The notes below the pieces were generated by a model. The model saw only the letters and a program-made list of their open reading frames with translations, had not been told where the DNA came from and did not search any database. DNA of 64,000 nt, taken from Devosia sp. A16 (GTDB taxonomy: Bacteria; Pseudomonadota; Alphaproteobacteria; Rhizobiales; Devosiaceae). The stretch spans positions 372,001 to 436,000 of the forward strand of contig NZ_CP012945.1 in the NCBI RefSeq assembly GCF_001402915.1, given 5' to 3'. Shown one piece after another: positions 40,555 to 44,298 of this stretch. Position numbers and translations under genes: made by a program. Numbering within the stretch: position 1 is the stretch's first letter; each line of letters starts with the position of its first letter.

Positions 40555-41349
40555 TCAGATTCCCCCATACCAATCATAGCCGTGATCTTCCCAGTAGCCT
40601 CCCTGCCCCAGGCCGAACCGGGCGAAACTGTCGACCAGCTCGATGGTATGGACATATTTGGGCTGCTTGTAGCCCAGTGCCCGTTCGATGCGGATGCGGA
40701 CCGGAGCGCCGTTGGCGACCGGTAGTGCCGCATCGTTGAGGCCGAACGCCGCGATGGTCTGCGGGTGGAAGGCGTCGATCAGGTCGGAGCTGGTGTAATA
40801 GGCCTCCGGCGCCGAGAGTCCGCCGCCCATCTGGTCGTAACAGTGATAGACCGCGAACTTCGCCTCAGGCTTCACCCTGGCCTCGTCGAGCAGCCGGCTC
40901 AGCGGCACGCCCGTCCACTTGGCGATGCAGCTCCAGCCCTCGACGCAGTCATGCCGGGTGATCTGGGTGCGCGCCGGCATGTTCTGGAGCTCGGCGAGCG
41001 AATACTCCTTCGGCGTCTCCACCAGCCCGGTGATCCTGAGCTTGTAGGCCGCAAAGCCGCTCGCCTCGAGATCGCGGTAGAGCTCGATGTTGCGCGGGTC
41101 GGTTGAGCCGTTCGGCCGCTGCCCCTGGCGGATCTCGCTCGGGGAGAACTCCTTGGCCAGAGCCTGCTCGCCGACCAGCGCCCGTTGCGCGGTATAGGTC
41201 AGCTGGTTGGCCCGCTCGAGAAAGTTACGCACCGGATGGTCGCGCTGGCCGAGGAAATCGAACTGGTCGCAGCCGGCCAGCACCAGCGAGCCGGCCGACG
41301 CTGCACCGAGCCCGAGCAGCCGGCGGCGGTTCAGGATCAACCGGCTCAT
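40555..41349 (-). CDS. Molybdopterin-dependent oxidoreductase, YedY/MsrP-like
   Basis: A 264-residue protein of the sulfite oxidase/YedY fold. The N-terminus combines a twin-Arg motif (LNRRRLLGLGAASAG) with a lipobox ending at Cys27 (LVLAGC), so a Tat-exported lipoprotein is likely. The molybdenum ligand is Cys135 in TRHDCVEGWSCIAKWTGVPL. Other family parts are TGLVETPKEYSL and GYKQPKYVHTIEL. MsrP-type enzymes reduce methionine sulfoxide in periplasmic proteins. Its ATG overlaps the stop of the cytochrome b gene (ATGA). The Met-rich peptide and SigF/NrsF upstream favour a methionine-repair role. Confidence 0.9.
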   Translation of the reverse strand: MSRLILNRRRLLGLGAASAGSLVLAGCDQFDFLGQRDHPVRNFLERANQLTYTAQRALVGEQALAKEFSPSEIRQGQRPNGSTDPRNIELYRDLEASGFAAYKLRITGLVETPKEYSLAELQNMPARTQITRHDCVEGWSCIAKWTGVPLSRLLDEARVKPEAKFAVYHCYDQMGGGLSAPEAYYTSSDLIDAFHPQTIAAFGLNDAALPVANGAPVRIRIERALGYKQPKYVHTIELVDSFARFGLGQGGYWEDHGYDWYGGI

Positions 41350-42341
41350 TTCGACTTCTCCTTACCCGGCGCACCGGCTGCCTGCTCCCCTGAGGGGATG
41401 GGGGTGGGGGTCCATCGGTGATCACCGGACCACCCCCTCCATCGTTCCCTCCCCTCAAGGGGGAGGGAGGCGCTGCGGCGAGACCCAGAGTCCGGCTCGG
41501 TGCCCGGGCTGGTGCGATAGTTGCCCGTGATCATCGAGCGCAGTTCGTTGATCGGCCCCGCCAGCACCACCATGGCGATATGCACCACGAAGAACAGCAC
41601 CAGCAGCAGCATCACGATGAAGTGGATGGTGCGCGCCGTCTGCCGGCCGCCGAACAGTTCGACCAGCCACGGCCAGCCGGCATTCATCGTCGGCGACATC
41701 GAGAGCCCGGTGAGGATGATCAGCGGGAACAAGATGAAGAACACCCCGAAATAGGCGAATTTCTGCAGCGGCGTATAGCTGCGGCCGTGATGGAATTTGA
41801 AGCGCAGATGCGCCCAGATATCGCCGGGGAGCTCCCTGAGGTCGCGCGGCTTGAGGATCACGTCGCGCCACAGGTGGCCGTTGGCGAGGCTCGACAGCAG
41901 CCAGATGGCGAGTGCGCCCGAGAGTACCCAGGCAAAAAAGAAATGCACCACCCGACCGGTGGCAAGGTCGCGGAACGACGGGATGGTGGCCCAGCCGGGG
42001 AAGCCGACGAAGTTGGGGTTCCCCCTAAGGTCGCTCATCCCGAGCACCCCGGTGGTGTCGAACTTCTGGCCGAACACCGTGGTGAAGCCGCGCGGCCCCG
42101 CGTCGGTGTTCTCCGCCCCGATCCTCAGGATCGCATTGTCGAACGCGAAGCCCGACTGCTGCCCGACATAGAGCGCCGGATGGGCGTTCCAGATCTGCAG
42201 GCCACTCAGCAGCAGGAAGAACATGGCGATCGCCCACACCCAGTGGGTGATGCGGGTCAGGACCGCCTGCCGATAGATCAGCGGACCTTTCGCCTTCACA
42301 GGTTTGCCAACCTCGACTCTGTCGATTGCCTGATCGGTCAT
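41346..42341 (-). CDS. Cytochrome b subunit for the YedY-like oxidoreductase
   Basis: A 331-residue membrane protein of the cytochrome b561/formate dehydrogenase-gamma type, with about four or five membrane spans. Haem-ligand His candidates are in RITHWVWAIAMFF, GRVVHFFFAWVLSG and ARTIHFIVMLLLVLFFVVHIAM. It would pass quinol electrons to the oxidoreductase encoded next. It is larger than MsrQ and of another subfamily. The last ~45 residues (from about SGSRRSAS) are encoded by a palindromic repeat and are unlikely to be original family sequence. Confidence 0.88.
   Translation of the reverse strand: MTDQAIDRVEVGKPVKAKGPLIYRQAVLTRITHWVWAIAMFFLLLSGLQIWNAHPALYVGQQSGFAFDNAILRIGAENTDAGPRGFTTVFGQKFDTTGVLGMSDLRGNPNFVGFPGWATIPSFRDLATGRVVHFFFAWVLSGALAIWLLSSLANGHLWRDVILKPRDLRELPGDIWAHLRFKFHHGRSYTPLQKFAYFGVFFILFPLIILTGLSMSPTMNAGWPWLVELFGGRQTARTIHFIVMLLLVLFFVVHIAMVVLAGPINELRSMITGNYRTSPGTEPDSGSRRSASLPLEGRERWRGWSGDHRWTPTPIPSGEQAAGAPGKEKSK
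41383..41472. repeat. Palindromic repeat inside the 3' end of the cytochrome b gene
   Basis: CTGCTCCCCTGAGGGGATGG and CCCTCCCCTCAAGGGGGAGG units flank GGTGATCACC. The repeat is read through in frame, which lengthens the cytochrome b by a Pro/Arg/Gly-rich tail. Confidence 0.75.
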
Positions 42342-42365
42342 CGTGTCCCCGATGGTTTCCGGCGT

Positions 42366-42407
42366 CGCTCCCCGCCTGCCCTTCTAGGAACGGCAGTTCG
42401 GGGAGCG
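42366..42407. other. Strong hairpin between the Met-rich peptide gene and cytochrome b
   Basis: CGCTCCCCG and CGGGGAGCG, each joined to CTGCC/GGCAG, form a long stem. There is no T run, so it may slow rather than stop transcription and would give more Met-rich peptide mRNA than oxidoreductase mRNA. Confidence 0.5.
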
Positions 42408-42429
42408 ATTGCAGCCTATCACGGATAGT

Positions 42430-42771
42430 TTATTGCGCCGGCGCCATGGCGCCCTCGGCCATGGGCGTCGCGGACATGGCGTCGCCCTGCATGGCGTCAC
42501 CCTGCATCGCGCCGCCGCTCATCGCCATGTTGTGCTGGTCGTGGCAGAGCTTGGTGGCGTCGTCCTTCTTCATCGCATCGGCCTCCATGCCGGCCTTCTC
42601 GAGGCAGGCCTTCAACATCTCGTCCGGCGTCATCGCCATGGGATCGGCGGCCATGGCGTCGCCGGCCATCGGCTCGGCCGCCATCGGCGTCGCCATGGCG
42701 TCCTCGGCAGCGACGTTGCCCGCAAAGCCCAGAGCGGCCGCAAGGGCGAGGGCGGAAAGAATGGTCTTCAT
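42430..42771 (-). CDS. Periplasmic methionine-rich peptide (MrpX-like)
   Basis: This 113-residue protein has a signal peptide (1-22, ending GNVAA). The mature 91 residues hold 16 Met (26, 30, 35, 40, 45, 47, 52, 62, 67, 82, 84, 89, 94, 99, 104, 109), many at five-residue spacing in units such as GDAM and ATPM, plus two Cys (56, 76). The composition (Met, Ala, Asp/Glu) fits a sacrificial oxidant sink as described for MrpX of Azospira suillum. It is preceded by GGGAGA and a GTAACC-N16-CGAA promoter. A metal-binding role for the Met clusters is the alternative. Confidence 0.8.
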   Translation of the reverse strand: MKTILSALALAAALGFAGNVAAEDAMATPMAAEPMAGDAMAADPMAMTPDEMLKACLEKAGMEADAMKKDDATKLCHDQHNMAMSGGAMQGDAMQGDAMSATPMAEGAMAPAQ

Positions 42772-42817
42772 CGGAAATCTCCCGTTGGCCGCTCGTCGCG
42801 GCGGTTACGTGGAGAAG

Positions 42818-42843
42818 TTCGCGGTCGGGGCCCCGGCGGTTAC
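42818..42843 (-). promoter_or_regulatory. SigF-type promoter of the Met-rich peptide gene
   Basis: On the minus strand GTAACC (42843-42838), 16 bases, then CGAA (42821-42818). This is exactly the consensus I recall for Caulobacter SigF promoters. Transcription would begin near 42810, leaving a leader of about 40 bases. Confidence 0.8.
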
Positions 42844-42888
42844 CGTCGTCACGCGTTCGTGACAACGCGACAGATCTCGCCGCGCGGT

Positions 42889-42914
42889 GTAACCTTTCGG
42901 GCCTGGCGAACGAA
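42889..42914 (+). promoter_or_regulatory. SigF-type promoter of the sigF-nrsF operon
   Basis: GTAACC (42889-42894), 16 bases, then CGAA (42911-42914), a second exact copy of the same promoter on the other strand. It implies autoregulation. The expected transcript start (about 42920-42923) is only a few bases before the ATG at 42926. Confidence 0.8.
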
Positions 42915-42925
42915 TTCAGGATTCA

Positions 42926-43483
42926 ATGAGCGTCACCTCGGACATGGAAGCGCGGCTTCGCGCGCTGATGCTGAAGGCGCTCGAGGGCGACGCAGGCGCC
43001 TATCGCACGCTGCTCGAAGAGTTGCGCCGCTATCTGCGGCCATATTTCCTGCGCCGCCTCACCCCCGGTCTCGCCGCCAACAGCGACGATCTCGTGCAGG
43101 ACACCCTGATGGCCATCCATACACGACGGCTGACCTATGACCGCGCCCAGCCGCTCACCGCCTGGGTGCATGCCATCGCCCGCTACAAGCTGATCGACCA
43201 TTTCCGCCGCAGCAGGGTGCGCGCCACCGTGCCGCTGGAAGACGATGCCGCCTTGTTCGCCCGCGACGAGGCCGGCGACGCCAGTGCCAGGATGGACGTC
43301 GATGCGGTATTGGCCACCCTGCCCTCCCGCCCGGCCGAGCTGATCCGTCAGACCCGGCTGGAGGGCGCCTCGATCGCCGAGGCCGCGGCCCGCACCGGCA
43401 TGTCGGAATCGGCAGTGAAAGTCTCGATCCATCGCGGGCTCAGGTCGCTCGCCGACCGTTTCGGAGGACGCTCCGATGAGTGA
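42926..43483 (+). CDS. sigF: ECF sigma factor, SigF type
   Basis: A 185-residue ECF sigma factor. Region 2 is seen in LRRYLRPYFLRRL ... NSDDLVQDTLMAIHTRRLTYDRAQPLTAWVHAIARYKLIDHFRR. Region 4 is in LPSRPAELIRQTRLEGASIAEAAARTGMSESAVKVSIHRGLRSL. The adjoining DUF1109/NrsF gene and the GTAACC-N16-CGAA promoter place it in the SigF/NrsF group. It overlaps nrsF by eight bases. A second possible start, ATG at 42944, would give a more normal leader. Its targets here are likely itself and the Met-rich peptide gene, perhaps with the oxidoreductase genes behind it. Confidence 0.9.
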   Translation: MSVTSDMEARLRALMLKALEGDAGAYRTLLEELRRYLRPYFLRRLTPGLAANSDDLVQDTLMAIHTRRLTYDRAQPLTAWVHAIARYKLIDHFRRSRVRATVPLEDDAALFARDEAGDASARMDVDAVLATLPSRPAELIRQTRLEGASIAEAAARTGMSESAVKVSIHRGLRSLADRFGGRSDE

Positions 43484-44114
43484 CGACCTGCTCGACCGGC
43501 TGGTTGCCGACCTCAAGCCGACACCACCCGCCGCGCTGCCGGCCCGACTGTTCGGCTGGGCCGGCCTCGGCGTGGTGCTCTCGGCGCTGCTGATGCTGGC
43601 CTGGCTCGGTCCCCGGCCGGACATGATGGAAGCCCCCGGCACCATGATGTTCTGGACCAAGTTCGCCTATACCGCGATCTTCGCCGTGGTCGGCGGCGTC
43701 GCGGCGCTCAACCTGGCGCGTCCGGGCGGCAGCTTGCGCCGGCAGGTGATCGGACTTGCCATCCTGGTGCTGCTGGTCGGCGCCGGCGGCCTCGTCCAGC
43801 TCGTGCTGATGGGCCCCGACCAGATGAGCCGGCTGGTGATGGGCAGCACCGCCTTGCGCTGCCCGTTCTACATCGTCGCGCTCTCGGTCCCGATCTACGC
43901 CGGCATCGTCTTCGCCATGCGCCGCGCCGCCCCGACCAACCCGACCCTCGCCGGCTTTGCCGCCGGATTGTTCGCCGGCGGCGCCGGCGTCTGGGTCTAC
44001 GCCTTTCACTGCACCGAAAGCGGCATGCCGTTCATTGCCATCTGGTACACGGCGGGCGTGCTGGCAACGGCGCTGCTCGGGGCGGTGATCGGGCGGTTTG
44101 TGTTGCGGTGGTAG
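43476..44114 (+). CDS. nrsF: NrsF-family (DUF1109) membrane anti-sigma factor
   Basis: A 212-residue protein with a short cytoplasmic N-terminus (MSDDLLDRLVADLKPTPP) and six hydrophobic segments, as in DUF1109 anti-sigma factors. Two Cys lie in conserved-looking places near membrane segments (ALRCPFYIVALS and AFHCTESGMPF); in NrsF of Caulobacter such Cys are needed for sensing metal or oxidant. It should hold SigF until oxidative or heavy-metal stress. The start ATG lies within the end of sigF. Confidence 0.9.
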   Translation: MSDDLLDRLVADLKPTPPAALPARLFGWAGLGVVLSALLMLAWLGPRPDMMEAPGTMMFWTKFAYTAIFAVVGGVAALNLARPGGSLRRQVIGLAILVLLVGAGGLVQLVLMGPDQMSRLVMGSTALRCPFYIVALSVPIYAGIVFAMRRAAPTNPTLAGFAAGLFAGGAGVWVYAFHCTESGMPFIAIWYTAGVLATALLGAVIGRFVLRW

Positions 44115-44154
44115 GGGCCGGAGATCCCCGAAGCACACCAACGCCCGGCGCTGG

Positions 44155-44272
44155 CCGACCCCCACCCCTGATCCCTCCCCCTAAACATGGGGAGGGAGAC
44201 CAAAACACGGGCGTCGAGGTTAAGCGTCTCCCTCCCCATGTTTAGGGGGAGGGATCAGGGGTGGGGGTCGGC
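44155..44272. repeat. Long inverted repeat (GACCCCCACCCC family)
   Basis: Nearly perfect arms CCGACCCCCACCCCTGATCC and GGATCAGGGGTGGGGGTCGG with inner CCCCCTAAACATGGGGAG and CTCCCCATGTTTAGGGGG. It lies between convergent nrsF and the ThuA-like gene. Confidence 0.85.
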
Positions 44273-44298
44273 GAGCACCGTGGCTCGGGGTGAAATGC

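Follow-up and report, generated by a model that had tools for sequence, protein, structure and literature searches.

What does a SigF/NrsF switch protect when it stands beside a molybdoenzyme, a cytochrome b and a secreted methionine-rich peptide? The question is raised by a locus of Devosia sp. A16, located at positions 40,555 to 44,114 of a stretch of 64,000 nucleotides (the window), which comprises bases 372001-436000 of a genome assembled as a single contig of 5.03 Mb. An earlier note, made from the DNA alone, had proposed a SigF/NrsF-controlled defence against methionine oxidation. This proposal is supported by the protein families, the gene order, the promoter motifs, the published work on Brucella (PMC8315932) and the occurrence of the motif in front of methionine sulfoxide reductase (Msr) genes. 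The locus probably belongs with mrpX/yedY1 and bcrXQP as a defence of envelope methionines that is induced by oxidants, and reactive chlorine is our best guess for the signal. The five reading frames are all open at the following coordinates:

40555-41349, minus strand: P, exported MsrP-like molybdoenzyme (PF00174, 105.3 bits)
41346-42341, minus strand: Q, cytochrome b561-type membrane protein (PF01292, 73.5 bits)
42430-42771, minus strand: X, secreted Met-rich MxKDx-type peptide of 113 residues (TIGR02953 penta_MxKDx)
42517-42627, minus strand: core of X, residues 49-85, two helices with Cys56 and Cys76 (AlphaFold2)
42818-42843, minus strand: XQP operon motif GTAACC-N16-CGAA, SigF-type promoter (exact match)
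42889-42914, plus strand: sigF-nrsF motif GTAACC-N16-CGAA, SigF-type promoter (exact match)
42926-43483, plus strand: sigF, extracytoplasmic function (ECF) sigma factor of 185 residues (Sigma70_r2, Sigma70_r4_2; NF009191, 201.7 bits)
43476-44114, plus strand: nrsF, membrane anti-sigma factor (PF06532, 226.6 bits)

The operon has the order X-Q-P and is divergent from sigF-nrsF, with both motifs in between. The open frames, families and gene order bear out the contiguity described in the earlier note, both of its GTAACC-N16-CGAA sites are exact, and so is its count of 16 Met in 91 mature residues of X when the signal peptide is assumed, by pattern, to be cut between A22 and E23. X scores 45.3 bits against TIGR02953 (cut-off 41) and NrsF passes the PF06532 gathering threshold with 226.6 against 26.8 bits. 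The locus belongs to the bcrXQP/mrpX-yedY1 type: an ECF sigma gene is followed by an NrsF-family gene, an MxKDx peptide is encoded divergently together with Q and P, and a motif precedes both units.

The same layout is described for bcrXQP/bcrS-abcS of Brucella, where an MXKDX peptide-Q-P operon is divergent from an ECF16 sigma factor and an NrsF-type anti-sigma factor, with motifs of the same consensus on both sides (PMC8315932). In B. melitensis, bcrXQP is reported to be induced by hypochlorous acid (HOCl) and activated by BcrS, and to add to HOCl resistance; start sites were mapped at -35 TGTAAC / -10 GCGAAA (PMC8315932). The layout is also shared with Brucella tritici (L122), whose P is 58% identical to the window P and whose Q is likewise of the b561 type. 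Unlike the window X with its C-x19-C core, the mature X of B. tritici has no Cys. In Azospira suillum, SigF/NrsF governs a Met-rich peptide (mrpX) and a YedY-type reductase (yedY1) (PMC5748585); this likeness is one of published description.

Whether the two motifs stand above chance was judged from their placement and conservation. Exact motifs with an N16 spacer occur 11 times in the whole genome, or about 0.14 times per 64 kb; here two exact sites lie within a span of 97 bp between the divergent genes, the XQP-side one 46 bases upstream of the X start codon. When one mismatch is tolerated, 3 matches occur in the window versus 1.37 expected. For the comparison, 42 of 121 related genomes had NrsF, and all 43 further NrsF hits above the cut-off were taken with their flanks. 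P and Q adjoin SigF/NrsF in 21 of these 43 loci. Together with 7 distinct loci from the named P loci (the best 80 of 593 candidates, with many Devosia among the nearest named relatives), they give 28 related PQ loci, and 29 distinct SigF-linked loci when the window is included; the degenerate copy L175, which has NrsF, and L107, a duplicate of L062, are outside the 29. Read as GTAAC-N-CGAA with base 6 and the spacer left free, the motif is found on both sides in 27 of the 28, on the XQP side in all 28 (exact in 15) and on the sigF-nrsF side in 27 (exact in 21); at least one exact copy occurs in 26. The motif pair is above chance through its placement between divergent genes and its recurrence in related loci, and a lone exact motif means little. 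The distance between the starts of the divergent motifs clusters near 52-54, 62, 70-73 and 79-81 bases, with 71 in the window. A helical-phase reading of these distances was rejected, as the steps are closer to 9 than to 10.5 and track clades.

The earlier note had suggested a genome-wide search for GTAACC-N16-CGAA to define the regulon. By itself this search yields little and was rejected as the sole definition, because the motif, at spacers of 15-17, occurs 19 times in the genome and 26 times in the reversed control. Only sites conserved in relatives were therefore used. Another exact motif of the genome lies 131 bases before the gene of a Tat (twin-arginine translocation)-exported MsrB (PF01641, 157 bits). 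Among genomes that carry the locus, 13 of 20 have an exact motif in front of the exported msrB, versus one (G003) of 19 readable genomes that lack the locus; the Fisher value of 1.4e-4 ignores kinship and is thus overstated, as are all Fisher and Mann-Whitney values here, the related genomes not being independent. Four of 30 msrB loci (G013, G015, G020, G031) were dropped as unreadable, and G014 had no msrB match. With any base at position 6, 7 of the 10 cytoplasmic msrB loci scanned in all genera are preceded by the motif, all seven in genus g15, and so is msrA in 9 of 30 loci exactly and in 7 more with one mismatch, again in g15. A methionine-sulfoxide-repair regulon is predicted behind the motif. 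Msr genes are already known in other ECF16 regulons (PMC8315932, PMC3420878).

In G003, where neither P nor NrsF was found, a secreted protein of 261 residues with a Met-rich N-terminal part (L259:1590-2375) starts 64 bases behind an exact motif. By eye we take this protein to be spondin-like.

The peptide X was then compared among its relatives. In 17 aligned X, C56, A60 and C76 are invariant and the C-x19-C spacing is identical in all, and in L052 the unit occurs twice; TIGR02953 matches 14 of the 17 at E <= 0.01. AlphaFold2, supplied with the 17-row alignment, gave helices at 49-61 and 66-85 with a predicted local distance difference test score (pLDDT) of about 90 and disordered flanks (mean 59.9). 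The mature X of about 91 residues contains 16 Met and 2 Cys, and the two Cys most likely form a disulfide that, according to the model, would staple a helical hairpin carrying the Met repeats. The C-x19-C hairpin is conserved among Devosiaceae-type relatives and recurs in two other families of the same order; across the order, its core was matched in 13 of 397 genomes, the own genome included. Six further X-core loci come from these two families, four of them with P and Q in the covered DNA and two with SigF. Across the class, TIGR02953 matched 9 of 289 genomes (own included), 2 of them above the cut-off. The literature covered, which leaves out the Azospira primary report, contains no mention of a Cys pair in MrpX/BcrX-type peptides. 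No Pfam identity could be assigned to X, as eight families each match one of the 17 members (best E 0.011), and a match to cytochrome c7 is noise (E 0.23). Cys is absent from the Met-rich open frames read in L177, L178 and L180, and in Rhizobium sp. BK251 a Met-rich secreted peptide with C-x7-C (L150:3684-4085) is encoded ahead of Q and P without SigF/NrsF.

X is absent from 7 of the 29 SigF-linked loci, which keep PQ, sigF-nrsF and the motifs. In these seven, the open frame of Q starts 13-73 bases from the motif and so leaves no room for X. In a tree built on Q, P, SigF and NrsF (with L107 kept at zero distance and L110, a duplicate of L059, left out) the X-less loci take four positions: L109, L071, the group L077, L078, L083 and L085 (support at least 0.99) and the weakly placed L100. 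Loss of X in several lineages would be the simplest reading. A second X was not detected, as the hairpin core was not matched in the X-less genomes G032, G048, G057, G060 and G066, and no short Met-rich open frame was seen behind the 32 motifs that were read out of the 36 exact ones in these five. In two of them an exact motif lies just before secreted proteins of about 490 residues (L250:1540-3027 in G057, L263:1553-3028 in G048), which resemble an ABC peptide-binding protein.

The strict conservation of C56, A60 and C76, while Met varies from 9 to 19 per mature X, and the recurrence of the core in two other families could mean that X serves chiefly in redox signalling or as a folding module, with the Cys pair and not the Met as the working part. 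We regard this as very improbable. Met makes up 13-19% of every mature X, B. tritici has an X without mature Cys, a scavenging role is described for MrpX and BcrX (PMC5748585, PMC8315932), and SigF-NrsF is kept where X is absent.

A metal response was considered next, in which a Met-, Cys- and His-bearing X would bind periplasmic copper or another metal and NrsF would sense it. Caulobacter has NrsF, SigF and the motif GTAACC-N16-CGAA, and there the system is induced by chromate and cadmium and controls the YedY gene CC2748 (PMC3511200). In Devosiaceae-type X, a His often follows the second Cys, with C-H-x2-H in several. This His is missing from the X of L052, L059 and L064 and of the two other families, which speaks against a conserved Cys/His metal site. 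The Caulobacter and bufferin (Buf1) outputs also differ from the window, being mainly DUF2282/DUF692/DUF2063/DoxX operons and not XQP (PMC3511200, PMC12452194). The remaining 22 of the 43 NrsF loci have no PQ pair, and DUF692-like (MNIO) and DUF2282-like (bufferin) genes were found in 17 of these 22 but in none of the 28 with PQ. The counts come from phmmer queries; a Pfam check limited to six proteins of L067 and L076 confirmed PF05114 and PF10048 in both loci, with PF09836 and PF07681 in addition in L076. No bufferin DUF2282/DUF692/DUF2063 gene was detected among eight window proteins scanned, which places the locus outside the Buf1 clusters. In these genomes, the bufferin (metal-type) and XQP outputs are not at the same locus. 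Since bufferin genes accompany the NrsF loci without PQ, metal is the weaker half of the metal-or-oxidant trigger that the earlier note had proposed, although the metal-induced SigF of Caulobacter does control a YedY gene. In addition, the extra motif-bearing genes that were recognised are mostly Msr genes. A metal response is quite unlikely, and an oxidant is preferred as the trigger. Downstream of a divergent NrsF locus with GTAACC-N16-CGAA in G009 (L094), a Met-rich secreted open frame of 297 residues was observed.

The repair enzyme and its electron donor were assigned by family. The best NCBIfam model for P is MsrP and its closest solved chain is E. coli YedY (72.8 bits). By pattern, P carries a twin-arginine signal and the lipobox LAGC with Cys27 and is therefore predicted to be a Tat lipoprotein. 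G26 and C27 are invariant across 12 aligned P, and the pattern is present in P of all 21 relatives and of 79 among the 80 named loci, two overlapping sets; the sole exception is the degenerate copy L175. The Mo-ligand Cys is presumably that in RHDCVEGW. The only other PF00174 protein of the genome has no evident signal peptide. Relatives of P were also seen on 249 plasmid records, 58 of Escherichia and 13 of Klebsiella.

Q belongs to PF01292 and not to the MsrQ fold PF01794, for which the genome gave no match at E <= 0.001. Six His are invariant across 14 aligned Q, and Q likely carries electrons from quinol to P, as far as the family tells. The Q model has a modest mean pLDDT of 60.5. With this model Foldseek returned hydrogenase-1 cytochrome b (4gd3, E 0.03) and formate dehydrogenase gamma (1kqf, E 0.09) as the best folds, both with probability 1.00; at E <= 0.001 there was neither a Foldseek match nor, by sequence, a solved relative. 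A Q match stands beside P in 78 of the 80 named P loci, the others being L172, which starts at a contig end, and L102. The final 40 or so residues of Q are encoded by an in-frame palindromic stretch at the 3' end of the gene (41392-41451), which lengthens Q; the tail has a different sequence in L060 and is absent in L057.

As in E. coli MsrPQ (YedYZ), a periplasmic PF00174 molybdoenzyme adjoins a b-haem membrane partner, but the window P stays below the MsrP cut-off and is a predicted lipoprotein, and Q is of PF01292. The difference from MsrQ that had been noticed from the DNA was thus borne out. The further suggestion of a possibly new electron route has to be recast: by membership the pair is not MsrPQ, but the non-MsrQ type holds family-wide, B. 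tritici included, so Q is not peculiar to the window locus. The Brucella QP pair is called homologous to MsrQP (PMC8315932).

P and Q might instead be a quinone-linked enzyme for sulfite or another S-oxide, with X as a responder to the same stress and not as a substrate. P also matches SorA (51.2 bits) and SoxC (43.7 bits), and the PQ pair persists where X is lacking and stands mostly apart from SigF. We consider this unlikely, as P fits the MsrP model best and has YedY as its top solved relative, and as the common motif before the MsrB and MsrA genes of relatives points to methionine sulfoxide. A methionine sulfoxide reductase is preferred for P. Judged from the distribution of the genes, PQ is an old pair to which SigF-NrsF and X were added in some lineages.

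The possible sensor lies in NrsF, which has conserved cysteines at positions 129 and 179 and is rich in Met on its periplasmic side. These features are shared with the NrsF-family anti-sigma factor OsrA of Bradyrhizobium japonicum, whose Met residues were proposed as oxidation sensors by Masloboeva et al. in 2012 (PMC3420878). EcfF/OsrA controls three methionine sulfoxide reductase genes; its motif differs, GTAAC(g,a)-N14-15-(c,t)CG(t,a), and the regulon listed in Table 3 of that report has, unlike the window, no XQP operon (PMC3420878). Cys179 is kept in 22 of 22 PQ-linked NrsF and in 18 of the 19 others, and for Cys129 the counts are 21 of 22 and 19 of 19; it is also missing in L107 and L109. 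Over 212 aligned positions, the PQ-linked NrsF have on average 11.5 Met (n=22) versus 5.3 in the others (n=19), and Met184, five residues past Cys179, is found in 86% of the former and none of the latter, a contrast that is confounded by clade. NrsF of B. tritici has a counterpart of Met184 but only 8 Met overall. The Met contrast between the two classes, as read from the alignment, is what this analysis adds. Downstream of nrsF lies an inverted repeat (44134-44292) with 67-base arms that are 90% complementary.

Several results weigh against a methionine-oxidation defence set off by reactive chlorine. P scores 83 bits on the MsrP model NF003767 (cut-off 207) and NrsF 168.5 bits on the equivalog NF042994 (cut-off 300). 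NrsF was not seen in the covered DNA around 70 of the 80 named P loci, so PQ has wider uses, and the system does not need X, as the seven X-less loci show. The signal is not readable from the family, since Caulobacter SigF responds to metals and not to peroxide (PMC3511200) and Bradyrhizobium EcfF to H2O2 (PMC3420878). The motif has no genome-wide enrichment. The exact motif is missing before msrB in seven of the 20 genomes that carry the locus, and it is present in G003, where the locus is absent. In the genus of the window, no motif precedes the scanned msrA genes or the cytoplasmic msrB of G000 and G011.

With these points included, the defence of envelope methionines remains our probable reading, with a mechanism inferred by homology. 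Some oxidant, with a reactive chlorine species as the likeliest candidate, would alter the periplasmic face of NrsF at Cys179 and the adjacent class-specific Met. The released SigF would start transcription at GTAACC-N16-CGAA before XQP and sigF-nrsF and, as the conserved motif suggests, also that of the exported MsrB in this genome. X would be secreted and its Met residues oxidised instead of those of other proteins. P would reduce methionine sulfoxide in X and in other envelope proteins, with electrons that Q would pass on from the quinol pool, as their families suggest. PQ would be the conserved output core and X an accessory sink that several lineages lack.

Taken together, sequence comparison shows the locus to be real and conserved; its kind is known, X is a variant form, and the regulon is modestly extended. 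Points that go beyond the earlier note are the two invariant Cys of X, the lipobox predicted for P, the dispensability of X and the Msr genes behind the motif. X may possibly be a distinct class of methionine sink, a Cys-stapled hairpin flanked by disordered Met repeats, with the Cys pair making X a two-stage trap for oxidants, by thiol and by Met, or as a handle for recognition by P, and with the Met beside Cys179 of NrsF sensing Met oxidation; we put this forward tentatively. If it were true, one chemistry would be sensed, buffered and repaired by one regulon. The locus raises the questions how an MsrP-like enzyme with a lipid anchor is supplied with electrons by a b561-type cytochrome and whether anti-sigma methionines act as an oxidant sensor, as proposed for OsrA in 2012 (PMC3420878). 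The Msr genes behind the common motif are a short, checkable regulon prediction. Because lineages with and without X keep the same repair pair and switch, the locus offers a non-pathogen setting close to the Brucella system in which the role of X beyond carrying methionines can be asked.

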